From Pedosphaera parvula Ellin514 (GTDB taxonomy: Bacteria; Verrucomicrobiota; Verrucomicrobiia; Limisphaerales; Pedosphaeraceae): a DNA stretch of 41,760 bases. Below the pieces are notes generated by a model. That model was not told the DNA's origin and did not search any database. It saw nothing but the letters and a program-made list of their open reading frames with translations. The position numbers and the translations under genes were made by a program. Positions 11,147 through 17,885 of the stretch are shown piece by piece. Numbering within the stretch: position 1 is the first letter of the stretch; each line of letters begins with the position of its first letter. The stretch covers positions 1 to 41,760 of the forward strand of contig NZ_ABOX02000057.1 of NCBI RefSeq assembly GCF_000172555.1, in the 5' to 3' direction.

Positions 11147-11809
11147 TTAAAAATGCAAGAATTGCCTGAAGGCTTGAAAGCCGCCCCACGCCAAATCGCC
11201 ATTGATCCCAAGCAGGCTCATGACCCAATCGACGGTCCCCCACAAAGCGTGGTTGGCGGCAGGGACGTACCAGAGGACAATGAACAACACGAACATGCCG
11301 TATTGGCGGACGGGTCGAAGGTGTTGATCGACCTCGGATGGGATATAGGGTTCGATCGCCTGGAAACCATCGAGCGGCGGGATGGGGATGAGATTCAGCA
11401 AGACAGAGCAGATCTGCAGTTGAAGCAGGAAGGCGACGGCGTAGGTGGCTGGATTATCGATGAAATGCGGTATGAGAACGAGTTTGAGCAGGACGGCGCA
11501 AATGATGGCTAGAATCAGATTCATTAACGGGCCAGCAAGAGAGACATAAGTGTTCCATTCGCGGGAACGGAGGAGGCTGCGGTTAATCCAGACTGCTCCG
11601 CCGGGCAGGCCGATGCCTCCCAAGGCCATGAACACTATCGGGAGGATAAAACTCATGAGCGGATCAGCATAATGGACAGGGTTCATGGAGAGATAACCCT
11701 TTTCGCGGACGGTGTAATCACCACCGCGCTCGGCCACCCAAGCATGTCCAAACTCGTGTAGGCAAACCGAGAATATCCAACCGATCAATACTATGGCAAA
11801 GACGCCCAT
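11147..11809 (-). CDS. Site-2 protease family (M50) membrane metalloprotease
   Basis: 220-residue polytopic protein with the zinc motif HEFGH (His18, Glu19, His22) in the first membrane helix and the third ligand in 'NLIPIPPLDGFQAIEPYIP' (Asp147). Both are positioned as in compact bacterial M50 proteins of the 'NPxxY...LDG' type without a PDZ domain. These enzymes cut transmembrane substrates within the membrane. The gene lies downstream, on the same strand, of the sigma factor/prepilin pair, after a gap of 188 nt. Because that sigma factor has its own membrane anchor, it is tempting to see this protease as a possible activator, but nothing in the sequence proves it. Confidence 0.9.
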   Translation of the reverse strand: MGVFAIVLIGWIFSVCLHEFGHAWVAERGGDYTVREKGYLSMNPVHYADPLMSFILPIVFMALGGIGLPGGAVWINRSLLRSREWNTYVSLAGPLMNLILAIICAVLLKLVLIPHFIDNPATYAVAFLLQLQICSVLLNLIPIPPLDGFQAIEPYIPSEVDQHLRPVRQYGMFVLFIVLWYVPAANHALWGTVDWVMSLLGINGDLAWGGFQAFRQFLHF

Positions 11810-11997: not shown

Positions 11998-12822
11998 TCA
12001 TTGGTGAACGTCCGGCCGTATGGCGGGAGTTTGCCAATCGTGATGCCAGTTGAGGGTCCATAACTCCTCCAGCTTGGTTAAGCGCGAATGGCCGTCGGCA
12101 AAGCCAATCATGATGGCTCCGGGCAGCTTTTGGCCCGTCGTCAAGGCGTGCGGAGCGGACGAGGGACTGCTGACGCTGTGCCGCGCAATCGTGCAACGGC
12201 CCATTCCGTTGTCACTCGTTCCAAATGGAGCCCCGTTGTAAAGATCAATCCATGGCGCATCCGTCTCCTTGGGCGATAGATCGACCCAGTTTGCATCCAT
12301 GAAGACTGGAGTCCGCGTCGTGTCTTCAATGCCATCAGTTTTGGTGAAAACGTTGCCCTCGGCCTTTGGGTAATATTTTGCAAGATCCGAATACAGCCAG
12401 CCGTTGTAGCCGTAGCTGCCAAAAAACATGTCCTTGGCATTGGAGGTCCACCTTACCCAGGCGGCGTCGGCGCTGCCTCCTCGATTTCCGTTATCAGGCG
12501 GCGGGTTGTGCAAGGGGGCCATGGGGCAAATGTATATTTTTCGGTCTTTGATCAAATCGGACAAACTGCCCATCCAGGTGCCGCCCGGATAACGGGGATC
12601 ATCGTAAAGGATGGGACTGCCATTTTCATTGGCATAGACAAAGCCAATCAGAGCGAGTTGCCGGATGTTGTTAAGGCACATTGCCTCCCGGGCCTTCATT
12701 TTGGCCCTGGAGAGGACTGGCAACAGCAAGGCCGCCAGGATGCCGATGACCGCAATTACCACCAGCATTTCAGTCAGGGTGAACCCTGTTTTTCCAGCTC
12801 TGCGTAGGTGGATGAAGCGCAT
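11998..12822 (-). CDS. Prepilin-like protein, N-methylation motif plus 'FADGH' domain
   Basis: 274 residues from the ATG at 12820-12822. The type IV prepilin N-terminus is clear: a short basic leader, then G/FTLTEMLVVIAVIGILAALL with Glu at mature position 5, to be cut and methylated by a prepilin peptidase. After the helix comes 'SRAKMKAREAMCLNNIRQL', a variable domain, and near the C-terminus 'IMIGFADGHSRLTKLEELW', as in the large Verrucomicrobia/Planctomycetes pseudopilin family. The start chosen avoids overlap with the sigma gene, whose stop is only 10 nt upstream, so the two genes are very likely one transcript. A role in a type II secretion-like or surface assembly is inferred. Confidence 0.9.
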   Translation of the reverse strand: MRFIHLRRAGKTGFTLTEMLVVIAVIGILAALLLPVLSRAKMKAREAMCLNNIRQLALIGFVYANENGSPILYDDPRYPGGTWMGSLSDLIKDRKIYICPMAPLHNPPPDNGNRGGSADAAWVRWTSNAKDMFFGSYGYNGWLYSDLAKYYPKAEGNVFTKTDGIEDTTRTPVFMDANWVDLSPKETDAPWIDLYNGAPFGTSDNGMGRCTIARHSVSSPSSAPHALTTGQKLPGAIMIGFADGHSRLTKLEELWTLNWHHDWQTPAIRPDVHQ

Positions 12823-12832
12823 AAGTTTAGTG

Positions 12833-14212
12833 TCAACGTTCGATTGTGAGTGCCACCATGAAGGGTGCGGCCCCGGCCATGGCCGAAGCATAGTCAATGG
12901 ATTGAATTTCCTTTTCGGCATGCGGGTTCACAAAGACGGTATCGAAAAGGCGGATGCGCGCGCCCTGGTGCTCGGCTGCCGGGTTGCTGCCGGTCCAGGC
13001 AACAATCGTATTAGTACCCGTTGGCCGTTTAACCGGGGCGCGCGGCCATTCCCACCAATCCAACACCTCCACTCCCTGGCGGATGTCAAATTGAACCTGG
13101 TCGCCGTCAGAATAATGTAAAATCACGCTTGCGACTTTTGTTCCAGGCGGATCGGCAATTGCGGAATTGGCGTGCAAGATATGAATCTTGTGACCGGTCG
13201 CTCCCACACGGATTCCTTCAACGGTTTCCGGATAATTGTAACCGCGCTGTTTCCATTCGGCTCCCTGGAGCTGAACGACACCATGTATTTCAAATGGCAC
13301 CCGCTTGAGTATGCGTCGTCCTTCCCCAAGGGCGGCCAGGTAATTATTTCCGTAGGCAGGAGTCCAGCTTTTATCGAGCCCGCCATTAAAGTGAGCGGAC
13401 AGATCCACAGCCATGAACGCTCCGCTTTCCACTGGATGGACGCCATAAATCAGATACGTCGCACCGCAGCCGAACAGCAGAATCAAGAGACCTGCGACTG
13501 CCAACTTGGTTTTGGCCGAGAGGAGATGTTGGACGAAAACCGTCGTCCAGCCTGGCGGCCCCATTGCGGCTGCCTTTGCCAGAGAGGTTTTTGCCACTGC
13601 CAACGGCAGGCTGACGGGTGCTGAAGGGATTGTCGCGGCGTTCAGGGAAGAAGCCAAAGATGCTACTGAAACAGCCACCCCGCCACGTGTCAGAATGATT
13701 CGCAGTTTGTCCAAAGCGCGACTTACCCGCTTCTGTGCTGCATCATCGCTAAGACCCAGGGCAGCACCGACGGATCGATAATCTTTGCCCTCGAAATAAT
13801 GCAACAGCACTGCATTTCGATCCGGACGGCTGAGCTTTTCCATGGCGGCGTCCAGCAACGGCTTGATTTGCTGCCAGTCGAGCAAGGCATCGGAAGTGGT
13901 ATCCTGCATGGAAAAAGCCTTCTGTTCGCGTGCTCGTCGGCGCTGTTCACTCCGTATCGCCTTCGCGGCGGCAAAGCGAGTCGCCTCGTAAAGCCAGCCG
14001 GCCAGTATGATTTCACGAGGCAGCAACGGTGCCTTGCGAGCTAGGTCAGTAAATACAGTTTGGGTGATATCTTCCGCCAGGCTGGCATCGCCATTGGCCT
14101 GACGTAGCGCTGTCCCATACACCAGATTGAAATGTCGGCCGACCAGCTCCCGAAAAGCTTCTTCATCGCCCTTTTCGACGAACCGGTGCAACTGGATCGA
14201 ATCCTCTGTCAT
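12833..14212 (-). CDS. ECF-type RNA polymerase sigma factor fused to a membrane-anchored C-terminal domain
   Basis: 459 residues. Residues 10-95 are sigma region 2 ('FRELVGRHFNLVYGTALRQA' and 'DITQTVFTDLARKA'), and about 110-175 are sigma region 4 ('LLDAAMEKLSRPDRNAVLLH', 'YRSVGAALGLSDDAAQKRVS' as helix-turn-helix). An Ala/Ser/Pro-rich linker follows, then one membrane helix at about 237-257. Roughly 200 residues of beta-rich domain would lie outside the membrane ('FEIHGVVQLQGAEW', 'VEGIRVGATGHKIHILHANS', 'HAEKEIQSIDYASAM'). Such fusions are known in Planctomycetes and Verrucomicrobia and may replace a separate anti-sigma factor. No anti-sigma gene is adjacent. A copy of the motif TTGTCGGAT-N12-GGGTGCTAT lies just upstream, suggesting self-regulation. 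The pseudopilin gene is coupled downstream. Confidence 0.9.
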   Translation of the reverse strand: MTEDSIQLHRFVEKGDEEAFRELVGRHFNLVYGTALRQANGDASLAEDITQTVFTDLARKAPLLPREIILAGWLYEATRFAAAKAIRSEQRRRAREQKAFSMQDTTSDALLDWQQIKPLLDAAMEKLSRPDRNAVLLHYFEGKDYRSVGAALGLSDDAAQKRVSRALDKLRIILTRGGVAVSVASLASSLNAATIPSAPVSLPLAVAKTSLAKAAAMGPPGWTTVFVQHLLSAKTKLAVAGLLILLFGCGATYLIYGVHPVESGAFMAVDLSAHFNGGLDKSWTPAYGNNYLAALGEGRRILKRVPFEIHGVVQLQGAEWKQRGYNYPETVEGIRVGATGHKIHILHANSAIADPPGTKVASVILHYSDGDQVQFDIRQGVEVLDWWEWPRAPVKRPTGTNTIVAWTGSNPAAEHQGARIRLFDTVFVNPHAEKEIQSIDYASAMAGAAPFMVALTIER

Positions 14213-14226
14213 TTTGATACTGCTTT

Positions 14227-14256
14227 ATAGCACCCGCCCCGAAAAAAATCCGACAA
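14227..14256 (-). promoter_or_regulatory. Candidate ECF promoter A, before the sigma gene
   Basis: On the minus strand this reads TTGTCGGAT, 12 bases, GGGTGCTAT. The downstream box ends 14 nt before the sigma start codon, leaving only a very short leader. The same pair of 9-mers occurs at 15432-15462 and 17855-17885. Two conserved boxes with a fixed spacing of about 12-13 nt look like the -35 and -10 regions of an ECF promoter. Recognition by the adjacent sigma factor is inferred. Confidence 0.65.
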
Positions 14257-14298
14257 TAATTATTTCCTTCGCGGAAATGCCCCAGTCCGGGCCGTGTC

Positions 14299-15276
14299 CT
14301 AAGGCATCAGGACAACACGATAAAATCGCTGCTGGTCTGAGCCAGGGGAGTCGGTGGTGGTTACAAGCACCCCGTTGGCTGTAATGGGTGGTCCGAGGTC
14401 GTTCCATTGGGCTGACGAGAGGTCGGTGGTGTATTGCGCCTGATAGGTGGCACCTGCCACAGCGCTCCAGGCAAGTGTCACCATTCCGTCGGTCCACGTT
14501 ATGGGAGCAAGCACCGGTGCGGGCGCGGACTGAGTCAGGGAGACATTTTTCCAGGTGGCGGCATTTGCGCCCACCACGTTGGGTCCTCCCTCGCGCTGGC
14601 CGAGGATGAGGTAGAAAGGGCCTATGCCCACGTCCAAATCGGATTGAACGCCGAGGAGGACGCCACTGGCGGAAAATAATGAAACCGTTGCGATGCCGGT
14701 GTCTTCGATGAAAATCTGAACCGTGCTCAGGGAATTGACGCTGGGGTCCGAATAGAGCTTGTTGCCCAAACTGAGGAATGGCAGTCCACTGTAATCATAA
14801 TTCACCCAAACGCCGAAGTAAGAGCCGTTGCCGGGGTTCAGATTGCCCGCCACATTCATCCATACCCCCAGACCGTCGCTGACGAGAAATATTTCATAAG
14901 CATTGCCATGCGCCTGGCCGGAGGTGACCGTGGTGGTCAGCGTGAACGGGGGCGAAAACGTGGCAAGTGATTGAACTCCGGCGAGTTCATTAACGCCCTT
15001 GACGCCGGAAAAGTTCATTCCCGCCCCTCCAAAACTCAATGTGGGAGTGATCAAGGAGGAGTTGAATTCCACAGCCAGAGCTGCCAGCAGGCCGGACGAG
15101 GTCGTCCACATATCAGTATTTAAGCTGCTGTCGGTGGTGAAATCATCCGACAGTTGCGCGTGACTGGTCAGGGGTGAGAGGGTCACAAGCATAAATCCGA
15201 AAAAGCTGGTCAATGATATGGCGACGCATTTGCGCGTGAATCGTTTTAAATGCGCGATGGAGATGGCATGATTCAT
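14299..15276 (-). CDS. Secreted protein with a LamG/ConA-like domain
   Basis: 325 residues from the ATG at 15274-15276. A signal peptide ('CVAISLTSFFGFMLVTLSPL', then 'TSHA-QLSDDF') is followed by 'DDFTTDSSLNTDMWTTSSG' and a beta-rich domain of about 200 residues like a concanavalin-type jelly roll ('GNAYEIFLVSDGLGVWMNV', 'GSYFGVWVNYDYSG'). The C-terminal module ('VTLAWSAVAGATYQAQYTTD' ... 'RFYRVVLMP') is the fibronectin-like end seen in many secreted proteins here. The frame is open further upstream (Met at 15399 and beyond), but those starts would bury the signal peptide. Candidate promoter B lies 156 nt upstream, implying a long leader. Function is probably carbohydrate or surface binding. 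Confidence 0.8.
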   Translation of the reverse strand: MNHAISIAHLKRFTRKCVAISLTSFFGFMLVTLSPLTSHAQLSDDFTTDSSLNTDMWTTSSGLLAALAVEFNSSLITPTLSFGGAGMNFSGVKGVNELAGVQSLATFSPPFTLTTTVTSGQAHGNAYEIFLVSDGLGVWMNVAGNLNPGNGSYFGVWVNYDYSGLPFLSLGNKLYSDPSVNSLSTVQIFIEDTGIATVSLFSASGVLLGVQSDLDVGIGPFYLILGQREGGPNVVGANAATWKNVSLTQSAPAPVLAPITWTDGMVTLAWSAVAGATYQAQYTTDLSSAQWNDLGPPITANGVLVTTTDSPGSDQQRFYRVVLMP

Positions 15277-15431
15277 AAGCTTGTTATTTGCATCCTTGCA
15301 TTGAACCGAACTGCGCTGGAACTGTGTTATCAATAATGGAAGTGAATCCCAGACCCGGTCCATGGCTGGCTTCAGTGGAATGCGAGGATTCGATATCATT
15401 TTAATTATGTCGGTCCTATTGTTTTTCCTGT

Positions 15432-15462
15432 ATAGCACCCGACCGCGAAATGAATCCGACAA
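15432..15462 (-). promoter_or_regulatory. Candidate ECF promoter B, before the LamG-like gene
   Basis: Minus-strand TTGTCGGAT, 13 bases, GGGTGCTAT: both 9-mers are identical to those at site A. It lies between the ynfA stop (15484) and the LamG-like gene, 156 nt from the preferred start and 33 nt from an alternative Met codon at 15399. The match in non-coding DNA is directly visible; the promoter role is inferred. Confidence 0.65.
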
Positions 15463-15483
15463 GAAAATTTGGCAACTTCAGAT

Positions 15484-15804
15484 TTATCCTCTGGGAGAGA
15501 AATAAATGATGAGCGATCCGACGAGGCACAAGGCGCCGCCGATCAAGTCCCAGTGGTCTGGTTTGACTCCATCCACGCGCCACAGCCAGACGAGTGAAGT
15601 GATGATGTAGATTCCTCCGTAGGCCGCATAAATGCGACCTGAGGCCTGCGGGTGCAGTGTAAGCAGCCACGCAAACGTCGCCAGGCTAATCGCAGCTGGC
15701 ATGAGCCACCAAGCTGTCCGGCCCAATCGGTACCAAAGGTAGACAAAATAACACCCGGAAATTTCCGCAATGGCAGTGATTACAAACAGCAGTGTCTTTT
15801 GCAT
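15484..15804 (-). CDS. ynfA: YnfA family (UPF0060) small membrane protein
   Basis: 106 residues, four membrane helices, matching the YnfA family along its length. Conserved segments include '[14 protein letters not shown]', '[20 protein letters not shown]', '[19 protein letters not shown]' and '[20 protein letters not shown]'. YnfA is a small multidrug resistance (SMR)-like protein, and efflux of cationic compounds has been suggested for some members; transport here is unproven. It stands alone, with a 297-nt gap upstream, and candidate ECF promoter B begins 21 nt after its stop. Confidence 0.95.
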
Positions 15805-16101
15805 CGGACAATAGTAACCAGCCGGATGGGAATCGCAATTCCAAGGTCATGATGTGACCTCGAGAAAGTGGAGGTGAGATAAGCAGGTTCTGCTGCGAAG
15901 TGGTGGAACATGGTTGGTTGTAGTGGAAAAGAGAGGGGATGTTCGATACTTTCCCAATCTGATAATCTCAAAATTTGATAAACATCATCCGCCTTCCAAC
16001 TCGACAACCCCATTCCCTTGGACACCATGCACAACAACAGATACTACTCGTGCGAGCCTCATCAAGGTTCCAGATAATCTTTCTTTTCGATTTGCAATGA
16101 A

Positions 16102-17823
16102 TCATTGCTGTTTAATGCAGTAAAACCTCTGGCTCTCCTGTGGGTTGATGATCAGGAAATTCGTGCGTGTGCCGTCGAAGGAATAGAAATTAGTCGCAAT
16201 AATTGGCCACTGCGCCAGGGGCAAAGCCAGGTTGGTAGAAGATAGCAGATAAAAAGCTCGGCCTGGCTGACCGTTGGCCACGGTGATAGAGACTTGCGCG
16301 CCTGAGACCGACACCGACGAAACAAATGGTTGCGAAATGGATTCATTGCCGGGTGCGAACCGAATTCCTCGAAGCACTTCTTTGTAAGGCGCGGCGTTCA
16401 GAAGGACTGTGGCGGTGGAAGATGGGCCATTGTCAATTATGGAACTGAGGACGTTCGCAGCGTCGGTGGCAAACAGGGCAGCGCCGAAAGCGTTGCTGCC
16501 CCATTGCGCGACGGTGGCCGGGAAGGAAACCGCCAGCCCCAGGGCGCCATTAGTCCCATCTACCGGCAATGTATAACTAAACGTGTAGCCGCCGCTGATT
16601 GTGTTCGTGTCCCAACGCTGGATGCCTCCACCACGGGTGAACGAGTTGGCGAATACACCGCCGTCGGCGACGTAAATCGTCCGGCCGTCCGGGCTGATGG
16701 CAAAATCGTTAGGTTGACCGCCTTCATTCAAGAGCAACCTTGCCGTGATGGAACTGTTGGCCGGCGGTTGGGGCGCGCCATCGCAAATGTAAAGACCGGC
16801 TCCGTTGCCGGCGAGGGCATCGGAATAGACCAGGTTCGTGCCGAAGATTTGCACCGCGTGAGTCCCTGTGAGACTCGATGTCGAAACGTATGGAATGCCT
16901 CTTCCGTTGGCGTATCCACTGTTCTGCGAATTGAGACATTTGACGCCCCCGCCCGCTCCGGCTTGCCCGGCCGTCCAAAAATTAGTGCCGTCCGTGGTCA
17001 CGCAGCCGCGAATGCTATGATTGACACCGCTGTTGGAGTTCCCATTGGCGCCGGTGTAAAGCCCGCTGTTGGTAGAGGCCAGCGTGTAACGGCCGGACGC
17101 ATCGACCGTTGCCAGGCCCCTCCAGTAAGGCCCGCCGTCTGCGGCTGTCGTCATGTCGCTGCCCCTAAATGGATAATTCTCGCAGTACGCGCCAAATGTC
17201 AGCAGTTGGCCGTTTGGCGATAAACTCAGGAGACCCGCATTGATGCAATCGTTGCCGACGCCGGGCAAAAGCAACGCGGGGCTGCCATAGACGCTTGCGG
17301 AACTGCCCGCGCCGTAATTTGCACCCTCGCTTTCATCAGGGATCTGGAGGCTGCTGACGTATGTTCCGTTTGTTGTGTATTGGTCCAGGTAAATCGTGTT
17401 GCCAGTCGAGCCGCTCAATTCCTGGACGCCATCCCCGACCCGCAGCACTACCAAATTTGAGAAATATAAGGGAATCGCCATTGCCGAGACCGACAGCGTT
17501 ACCGAATTGATGACATAAGTGCCGGAGCTATCACCCACGGTCACCTCATATTCTCCGGAATTGGTCGTTTGAATGTTCGTCAAGACGAGCGAGGAACCAG
17601 TTTGGCCTGAAATGGGGAGATTCGACTGATACCACTGGTACGAAAGTGGTCCGGTTCCTGAAGCCGAAACTTGGAAAGCCACATGACCTCCAGCGGCCTC
17701 ATTAATTACAGGCGGGTAAACAAAATCAATGACCGGTGCGGCGGTCGCGCTCCGGCCACAGATCACAACGAACCCGAGGAACGAAAGGAAGGCGATGCAC
17801 CGGCGCGCCAGCGGCCCGTGCAT
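16102..17823 (-). CDS. Secreted Ig-like domain protein with a beta-propeller-like body
   Basis: 573 residues from the ATG at 17821-17823; a Met 8 codons upstream (17847) is possible, and the open frame runs to 17925. The longer forms are disfavoured because candidate promoter C (17855-17885) lies there. A signal peptide ('CIAFLSFLGFVVICGRSATAA') precedes an immunoglobulin-like domain ('GPLSYQWYQSNLPISGQTGS' ... 'NSGEYEVTVGDSSG'). The next 400 residues hold repeating beta strands with 'LSLSPNGQLLTFGAYCENYP' and 'NDFAISPDGRTIYVADGGVF', typical of propeller blades. The end is the usual 'FYLLSSTNLALPLAQW...RFYCIK' module. The role is likely extracellular binding. Confidence 0.85.
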   Translation of the reverse strand: MHGPLARRCIAFLSFLGFVVICGRSATAAPVIDFVYPPVINEAAGGHVAFQVSASGTGPLSYQWYQSNLPISGQTGSSLVLTNIQTTNSGEYEVTVGDSSGTYVINSVTLSVSAMAIPLYFSNLVVLRVGDGVQELSGSTGNTIYLDQYTTNGTYVSSLQIPDESEGANYGAGSSASVYGSPALLLPGVGNDCINAGLLSLSPNGQLLTFGAYCENYPFRGSDMTTAADGGPYWRGLATVDASGRYTLASTNSGLYTGANGNSNSGVNHSIRGCVTTDGTNFWTAGQAGAGGGVKCLNSQNSGYANGRGIPYVSTSSLTGTHAVQIFGTNLVYSDALAGNGAGLYICDGAPQPPANSSITARLLLNEGGQPNDFAISPDGRTIYVADGGVFANSFTRGGGIQRWDTNTISGGYTFSYTLPVDGTNGALGLAVSFPATVAQWGSNAFGAALFATDAANVLSSIIDNGPSSTATVLLNAAPYKEVLRGIRFAPGNESISQPFVSSVSVSGAQVSITVANGQPGRAFYLLSSTNLALPLAQWPIIATNFYSFDGTRTNFLIINPQESQRFYCIKQQ

Positions 17824-17854
17824 TATAGGATCATGCGTAATTCTCATTTCTCCC

Positions 17855-17885
17855 ATAGCACCCGCCGCCATGGCAAATCCGACAA
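17855..17885 (-). promoter_or_regulatory. Candidate ECF promoter C, before the Ig-like protein gene
   Basis: Minus-strand TTGTCGGAT, 13 bases, GGGTGCTAT: both boxes are identical to sites A and B. The downstream box ends 31 nt before the preferred start codon. All three sites are also preceded by an A/T-rich stretch (AATTATT or AAATTTTC) just upstream of the first box, which could be an UP-like element. Confidence 0.65.

Follow-up and report, generated by a model that had tools for sequence, protein, structure and literature searches.

The three two-box sites of the window, the whole 41,760-nucleotide stretch of DNA that was analysed, are very probably promoters of the tethered ECF sigma factor encoded in it (P0001), which would drive its own operon as well as a LamG-like and an Ig-like gene (Table 1). 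The boxes, their position, the promoter of the sigma family, the residue-base covariation and a conserved site at the LamG-like gene are the parts of this reading that sequence supports.

Table 1. Coordinates of the sites, genes and protein segments at the sigma factor locus
Feature	Position	Strand	Remarks
Site A, TTGTCGGAT-N12-GGGTGCTAT	14227..14256	-	putative sigma autopromoter; second box ends 14 nt before ATG
Site B, boxes of site A, N13	15432..15462	-	before LamG-like gene
Site C, boxes of site A, N13	17855..17885	-	before Ig-like gene
P0001, 459-aa ECF sigma factor carrying a hydrophobic segment and a C-terminal domain	12833..14212	-	Pfam Sigma70_r2 and r4_2; NCBIfam TIGR02937
Sigma region 2, residues 23-92	13937..14146	-	contains A77 and K84, covarying with -10 half
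Region-4 recognition helix, residues 156-169, DDAAQKRVSRALDK	13706..13747	-	contains Q160 and K161, covarying with -35 half
Predicted transmembrane segment, residues 237-255	13448..13504	-	hydropathy 2.29 over 19 residues
C-terminal domain, residues 256-459	12836..13447	-	presumed outside membrane; presumed sensor
Pseudopilin-like protein, prepilin N-terminal motif	11998..12822	-	immediately downstream of sigma; probably cotranscribed
LamG-like predicted secreted protein	14299..15399	-	start uncertain, ATG 15399 (32 nt after box) or 15277; 72% homologue in G004
Ig-like predicted secreted protein	16102..17847	-	start uncertain, ATG 17847 (7 nt after box) or 17823

Results

The preliminary description placed TTGTCGGAT-N12/13-GGGTGCTAT at three locations. 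All three were exact and on the minus strand, and the spacers of sites A, B and C differed as described (12, 13 and 13 nt). The pair was said to be absent elsewhere in the window, and there were no further exact copies with spacers of 9-16 allowed; dinucleotide shuffles of the window gave 0 matches to the two-box pattern in 100. The genome scan that had been proposed was run on the genome of the window (G000; 7,410,698 bases, 102 contigs, 95.9% complete) and returned four exact matches, with none for the reversed-pattern control. The fourth site, C16:14146-14175(-), is located 164 nt upstream of its ORF. When up to 3 mismatches were allowed with N12 and N13, 7 extra places appeared, compared to 3 and 1 for the reversed control, which leaves near-matches with little weight by themselves. 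Three of the 7 places (C3:188278, C16:4904 and C24:26418) directly precede paralogous ECF genes.

Eighteen identical bases per site could also be expected if the sites were non-regulatory remnants of a duplication or a mobile segment. However, the sequences flanking the four exact sites show no relationship to one another (16-41% identity without gaps) and hence the sites did not arise by copying of a single segment, a candidate that was ruled out on this ground. The differing spacers, the empty reversed control and the retention of a site at the LamG-like orthologue of another genus of the family, where that gene is inverted, also argue against such remnants, which we consider extremely improbable.

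The assignment of P0001 as an ECF sigma factor was based on its scores against Pfam PF04542 (26.2, cut-off 24) and PF08281 (40.9, cut-off 25.7) and NCBIfam TIGR02937 (63.2 bits, cut-off 42.9); no SigI model was among the NCBIfam matches listed (25 of 62 families). A hydrophobic segment follows region 4, and the predicted topology is that of a tethered sigma factor. Hydropathy of at least 1.6 within residues 181-378 was found in 25 of the 32 members of the sigma family of G000 that were tested. The C-terminal domain had no Pfam family at E<=1, no PDB match and no NCBIfam family among the matches listed, and an AlphaFold2 model built on two sequences was unusable (pLDDT 28.4). It shares 69% identity with its counterpart in genome G004. 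Matches to this domain at E<=1e-15 were present in 117 of 313 genomes; at 60% identity or more they were confined to 2 of 313, the same two that carry the strict address, which was present in 2 of 320 genomes of the order (the genome draws of the homologue and address searches differed slightly: 293, 320 and 313). With P0001 as the sole query, nothing was found among named genomes.

A putative promoter of the -35/-10 type precedes the P0001 gene, and comparable promoters accompany its relatives. Including P0001, G000 encodes 33 related sigma factors, most of which are preceded, immediately upstream of the start codon, by a two-box promoter in a version of their own. The motif before the 33 family genes reached a log-likelihood of 181, compared to 50-57 in 8 shuffled sets, which were run with fewer restarts and iterations. 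Relatives across the order also carry versions of it, and in 24 of 26 genes from other genomes the promoter score was above the 99% shuffle level, with L036 and L046 also left out of the motif matrix for this comparison. L048 (C-terminal match only) and L049 (a second copy of L037) were left out from the motif search onward; L024, with an in-frame stop and an uncertain start, was kept in the motif, second-copy and nearest-promoter analyses and otherwise left out. The model of an autoregulated sigma factor put forward in the preliminary description thus gained support, since the sister sigmas mostly have their own promoter at the same place and its letters covary with residues of the protein.

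This covariation was found by an unguided search in which 172 residue columns were compared with 23 promoter positions across 173 genes, scored by corrected mutual information. The top pairs were K161/-35, K84/-10, Q160/-35 and A77/-10. The coupling of Q160 was stronger at -33 than at -31, the site of contact in the sigmaE structure. Changes at residue 161 fell on the same tree branch as a base change in 20 of 24 cases (1.6 expected), and same-branch changes numbered 13 for residue 160 (1.7 expected), 27 for residue 84 (7.6) and 8 for residue 77 (2.0); the p values of this test are rough because it is based on parsimony, breaks ties alphabetically and takes its expectation from random branches. 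In an alignment with M. tuberculosis SigE, Q160 and K161 align with R and S, which we take to be the equivalents of E. coli sigmaE R171 and S172. These two E. coli residues contact -31 and -34, according to the excerpted text of PMC6713349.

A held-out set of 184 genes, reduced to 172 after removal of duplicates, was used with the four variable -35 letters masked when promoters were called. Promoters were callable in 125 of the 172 held-out and 48 of the 58 training genes, and the remainder (47 and 10) was left out of the code counts. The best identity to a training gene was in the 90% band for 1 held-out gene, the 80% band for 7 and the 70% band for 35, so that not all are distant from the training genes; several share genomes, and one of the two selection patterns was the QKRV helix, which biases the set toward that class. 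Among the callable held-out genes, K161 was accompanied by C (86/86), M161 by T or G (34/34), R160 by C (42/43) and Q160 by G (54/68; C 10, T 4). At the -10 half, K84 was accompanied by G in 28 of 31 held-out genes and D84 by C in all 21; N84 occurs with any base, and L114, a relative bearing K84, has A at the matched base. The code is incomplete, as seen from the various bases found with Q160, N84 and M161. For many sister sigmas, the promoter letters are largely readable from the amino acids of the protein itself.

Since the sites precede several genes in one neighbourhood, and operators too can adjoin start codons, the boxes might instead be operators of an unrelated DNA-binding protein for which the sigma gene is merely one target. 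Such a regulator gives no reason for letters that covary with residues of the sigma factor encoded just downstream, nor does it account for regions 4 and 2 each pairing with a box of their own, in promoter order and spacing. The operator reading was therefore rejected as very improbable.

If the sites are sigma promoters, sites B and C, and the C16 site, could still be served mainly by one or more other members of the family as a shared regulon. Several members have QKRVSR-type helices and TGTCGGAT -35 boxes, L021 has the same GGGTGCTAT half, and the excerpted text of PMC6056542 describes limited cross-talk among clostridial sigmaI factors, mainly at some shared promoters. However, the nearest other family promoter in G000 has at least 4 differences from every site over 21 positions, and the combination of A77/F80/A81/K84 with Q160/K161/S164 is unique to the window sigma among the 32 members of G000 that were compared. 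A shared regulon is consequently improbable in our estimate, and we favor the window sigma as the factor that would act at these sites.

The window sigma aside, no second copy of a member's own promoter was found within about 10 kb (contig ends allowing) at up to 3 mismatches in 21 positions. Multi-gene local regulons are therefore not typical, and the proposal that every tethered sigma has local targets was rejected. The 60-nt exclusion zone of this search was too small, and of the 11 "near" rows with 0 mismatches, 10 were a member's own promoter at a distance of 60-84 nt.

The only close orthologue found is at locus L115 of G004, in another genus of the same family. Its sigma gene is preceded by TTGTCGGGT-N12-GGGTGCTAT and its LamG-like gene by GTGTCGGAT-N12-GGGTGCTGG; the LamG-like orthologue is inverted, yet the site before it is kept. 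The pattern TGTCGGRTTN7-10GCGGRTGCT had no third place in G004, and neither the Ig site nor the C16 site has a counterpart there at the pattern searched. The preliminary description had considered both neighbouring genes as targets: this is supported for the LamG-like gene, with the conservation of its site seen in one orthologue, while the Ig-like gene, like the C16 gene, is a candidate by its match. The domain labels call for correction. LamG has no support from Pfam, or from NCBIfam among the matches listed, and Ig is based on a Pfam Ig_3 score of 26 bits, below the cut-off of 30. The start of the Ig-like gene at 17823 would be the better fit to a short leader and a signal peptide.

The pseudopilin gene, which has no site of its own and lies 10 nt downstream of the sigma gene, would be transcribed by read-through. 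The order of the two genes is kept in L115 (54% identity for the pseudopilin). An M50 peptidase gene (11147-11809) adjoins the sigma and pseudopilin genes. A tblastn search at E<=1e-8 gave no counterpart of it in L115, a short locus spanning about 4 kb on either side of the sigma gene, and a role of this peptidase as the release protease is therefore only a guess.

Discussion

We propose a scheme in which transcription itself, topology, the signal, the release step and the function of the targets are what we infer. TTGTCGGAT(T) would be the -35 element, recognized through Q160 and K161 in the recognition helix of region 4, and (GC)GGGTGCTAT the -10 element, read by region 2 through A77 and K84. 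The predicted transmembrane segment would hold the sigma factor at the membrane with the C-terminal domain presumably outside, where a signal might free or activate the sigma part. Once active, the sigma would turn on the operon that comprises its own gene and the pseudopilin gene, in a positive feedback, together with the LamG-like and Ig-like genes and perhaps a cluster of DUF3592 membrane-protein genes at C16. As most of the 33 sigmas have a two-part address of their own, cross-talk would be limited.

An order-wide generalization is a proposition on which we are evenly divided. Members of the order, which belongs to the Verrucomicrobiota, would possess a large set of one-chain transmembrane sigma receptors, each sensing the outside and naming its own promoter, with the -35 half set mainly by two helix residues and the -10 half by two or three residues of region 2. 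A cell would hold dozens of nearly separate addresses (33 in G000), with tiny regulons, often the own operon only, and near-leaderless transcripts. If this is true, the sequence of a sigma factor would be enough to predict its target, even in organisms beyond the reach of cultivation. The covariation itself makes a readable code of a promoter guess made by eye. The order is known here mostly from metagenome assemblies, and the promoter of a tethered sigma is largely predictable from a few residues, so that regulons of surface-protein genes can be tested without host genetics. With 33 related sigmas in one cell, G000 also offers a source of address/sigma pairs, many in number, from which orthogonal switches could be built, and a clean case for how paralogous sigmas avoid cross-talk.

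Residue-base codes for ECF sigmas are already known. Todor et al. 2020 (PNAS 117:33496), as described in the excerpted text of PMC8103513, derived one from autoregulated ECF sigmas. As in that code, autoregulated promoters here link -35 and -10 letters to residues of regions 4 and 2, and Q160 and K161 occupy contact positions established by structures. Unlike it, as far as that description goes, the present sigma continues into a hydrophobic segment and a C-terminal domain, the letters are TGTnnnnTT and a GCGG-led -10, and there are dozens of members per genome. In E. coli sigmaE and B. subtilis SigW the recognition helix makes contacts at -35, -34 and -31, and the sigmaE TT at -30/-29 fits the invariant TT found here in the register that we infer, whereas the -35 sequence is T C G G A T T at the present sites and G G A A C T T for sigmaE, and the -10 elements differ as well (excerpted text of PMC6713349).

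A regulatory domain fused behind region 4 is shared with ECF41, ECF42 and ECF44/CorE, and the C-terminal extensions studied by experiment and named in the excerpted text of PMC8103513 are SnoaL_2, TPR and metal-responsive. In contrast to these groups, P0001 has a hydrophobic segment and a 204-aa domain that matches neither Pfam nor PDB, and no SnoaL_2 or TPR domain was found in residues 256-459 at E<=1. In SigI systems the anti-sigma factor is a membrane protein of its own, RsgI, with ectodomains, unlike the single chain that joins sigma and presumed sensor here. The SigI/RsgI systems of cellulolytic clostridia, as presented in the excerpted text of PMC6056542, resemble the present one in having a paralogous sigma set with distinct promoters and limited cross-talk, a likeness in working.

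Distribution of the two-box sites

The three minus-strand sites of the preliminary description lie exactly where it had placed them, and the window holds no further copy of the pair TTGTCGGAT...GGGTGCTAT when spacers of 9–16 nt are allowed. None of 100 shuffled windows contained a match. The genome scan that it had proposed was carried out on the assembly of P. parvula Ellin514 (7.41 Mb, 102 contigs, 95.9% complete) and returned four exact matches, while the reversed pattern returned none. The flanks of the four sites are unrelated (16–41% ungapped identity). Allowing up to three mismatches added seven places (reversed controls, 3 and 1), three of which directly precede members of the sigma family described below.

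Exact two-box sites in the P. parvula Ellin514 genome (C16, another contig of the assembly)
Site	Position	Strand	Boxes	Spacer
A	14227-14256	-	TTGTCGGAT...GGGTGCTAT	12 nt
B	15432-15462	-	TTGTCGGAT...GGGTGCTAT	13 nt
C	17855-17885	-	TTGTCGGAT...GGGTGCTAT	13 nt
Fourth site	C16:14146-14175	-	TTGTCGGAT...GGGTGCTAT	

Genes downstream of the sites

Between the end of site A and the sigma ATG lie 14 nt. The gene encodes a 459-aa ECF sigma factor, which has Pfam regions 2 and 4, a TIGR02937 score above the cut-off, a hydrophobic segment at residues 237–255 and a 204-aa C-terminal domain with no match in Pfam, NCBIfam or PDB. The pseudopilin gene begins 10 nt past the sigma gene. The protein encoded after site B is predicted to be secreted, as proposed; the preliminary description called it LamG-like, but Pfam gave it no family. 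In that encoded after site C an Ig domain was detected, with a sub-threshold score. The latter (16102-17823) matches 157 places genome-wide, a large Ig-type protein family. The site on C16 lies 164 nt upstream of an open reading frame in which DUF3592 scores 28.6 bits (cut-off 25.3); more frames follow on the same strand. A UPF0060 (YnfA) membrane protein gene (15484-15804) between sites B and C lacks such a site. An M50 (site-2-protease type) peptidase gene (11147-11809) adjoins the sigma operon and is a tempting candidate for the release protease; no match to it was found at L115, the orthologous sigma locus of genome G004.

A sigma family with a common putative promoter motif

A protein search of the genome gave 49 matches, and 33 of them, including the window sigma, span the sigma part (E ≤ 4.1e-40). 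Upstream of these 33 genes we found the motif cTGTCcGaT N10-12 GCGGgtATt (box edges as set by the search script), with a log-likelihood of 181 versus 50–57 in eight letter-shuffled sets run with fewer restarts. A matrix built from 30 of the 33 promoters was then applied to 26 genes, each from a different genome elsewhere in the order (one of these genomes is of the same family), and the motif was present above the 99% shuffle level at 24 of them. Three promoter calls were weak (L024, 10.7 bits; L036, 8.7; L046, 10.9). L024 (C5:110513-111304), the second weakest, has an in-frame TAA and an uncertain start, and is perhaps a decaying sigma gene. The called second box ends 8–26 nt ahead of the start codon in 32 of the 33 members and 38 nt ahead of it in L042. 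Often the distance is as short as 6–17 nt, e.g., in L028, L031, L041 and L047, so that transcripts should be nearly without leader. By eye, and uncounted, an A/T-rich stretch (e.g., aaaatttt) resembling an UP element often stands just upstream of the -35 box.

The QKRVSR helix and TGTCGGAT are common to several members, and GGGTGCTAT is also found in L021. Because no other member's promoter unites both halves, the nearest differing from each site by at least 4 of 21 positions, sites B and C are very probably served by the window sigma. Seven distinct genomic places match the pattern TGTCGGATTN7-10GCGG, namely sites A and C, the C16 site and four promoters belonging to other members (reversed control, 0); site B has TCGG and hence falls outside it. 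For the other members, no second copy of their own promoter was found within about 10 kb at up to 3/21 mismatches; regulons reaching past the own operon may be rare. Several tethered sigma genes also occur in pairs on a single contig, about 1 to 12 kb apart (C26:82338-84657, C3:188319-192037, C14:84826-97984 and C70:13847-20530).

Covariation of sigma residues and promoter bases

The variable -35 letters sort the recognition helices: AQKRVSR goes with TGTCGGATT, ARKRV with TGTCCG, ARMRV with TGTTCG, AKMRVNR with TGTTACC and AKTRVSR with TGTAACC. There are isolated exceptions and some less common classes. A held-out set of 172 genes (loci L114–L273, duplicates and training genes removed) was examined with the four variable -35 letters masked during promoter calling, which succeeded for 125. 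Among the callable genes K161 (window sigma numbering) went with C in 86/86, M161 with T in 19 and G in 15 of 34, R160 with C in 42/43, Q160 with G in 54/68, and K160 with A in five and C in three. When 172 residue columns were compared blind with 23 promoter positions across 173 genes (48 from training and 125 held out), the background-corrected ranking placed K161/-35 first, K84/-10 second, Q160/-35 third and A77/-10 fourth. In the -10 half of held-out genes, K84 went with G (28/31), D84 with C (21/21) and Q84 or T84 with C (16/16), while N84 accompanied any base; A77 and S77 went with G (12/14 and 18/21), and H77 with T or C (21/21).

On a tree built without the tested residues, changes at residue 161 shared a branch with a base change in 20 of 24 cases (expected 1.6); the corresponding values were 13 of 25 for residue 160 (1.7), 27 of 54 for residue 84 (7.6) and 8 of 30 for residue 77 (2.0). 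Residue 164 was borderline (8 versus 4.4 expected), and six control pairs of other residues showed no enrichment. Thus one box tracks region 4 and its partner tracks region 2, the pattern expected of a sigma promoter.

Orthologue and C-terminal domain

L115 belongs to Verrucomicrobia bacterium Centralia_MAG_180 and encodes a 460-aa sigma whose sigma part and C-terminal domain are 66% and 69% identical to those of the window sigma. It is followed by the pseudopilin gene (54%); the LamG-like gene (71%) has the opposite orientation to that in the window. The sigma gene is preceded by TTGTCGGGT-N12-GGGTGCTAT and the LamG-like gene by GTGTCGGAT-N12-GGGTGCTGG, and a looser pattern matched exactly these two places in the 6.8-Mb genome. 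The Ig site is not conserved there, the looser pattern having no third place; the nearest Ig relative (51% identity) lies within a 2035-aa frame on a different contig. Another relative, L114, has 61% identity in the sigma part and a different C-terminal part, and its own gene is preceded by TGTCGGATT and GCGGATGCT, found nowhere else in that genome. Within the order, P. parvula and G004 were the two genomes with the strict two-box address (2/320), the C-terminal domain at 60% identity or more (2/313) and a LamG-like relative above 60% (2/293).

Of 313 genomes in the order, 117 contain the C-terminal domain, which is without known family. Many relatives are located in frames of about 1000–1600 aa, a setting that hints at a role at the surface or in polymer binding. 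The domain (12836-13447) also recurs in other P. parvula proteins (C34:59543-60100 and C29:43185-46652).

Comparison with known sigma factors

Q160, K161, R162, S164 and R165 align with R, S, R, H and R on the recognition helix of M. tuberculosis SigE. In E. coli sigmaE, excerpts of PMC6713349 describe contacts of R171 at G'-31, S172 at G-34 and R176 at G-35. We placed the invariant TT of the family on the sigmaE TT at -30/-29, a register that we infer, as we do the equating of the two SigE helices. In this register K161 couples with -34, Q160 couples most with -33 and next with -31, and the invariant R165 stands opposite the invariant T-35. Of these couplings, those at -34 and -31 agree with the E. 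coli structure, but the stronger one at -33 does not follow from it.

According to excerpts of PMC8103513, ECF sigma factors mostly autoregulate, their -35/-10 letters track sigma residues (describing Todor et al. 2020), and C-terminal extensions are already known, although those covered in the excerpts are not of the kind carried by the window sigma. A literature search on verrucomicrobial or fused ECF sigmas, judged by title and abstract opening, did not find this family.
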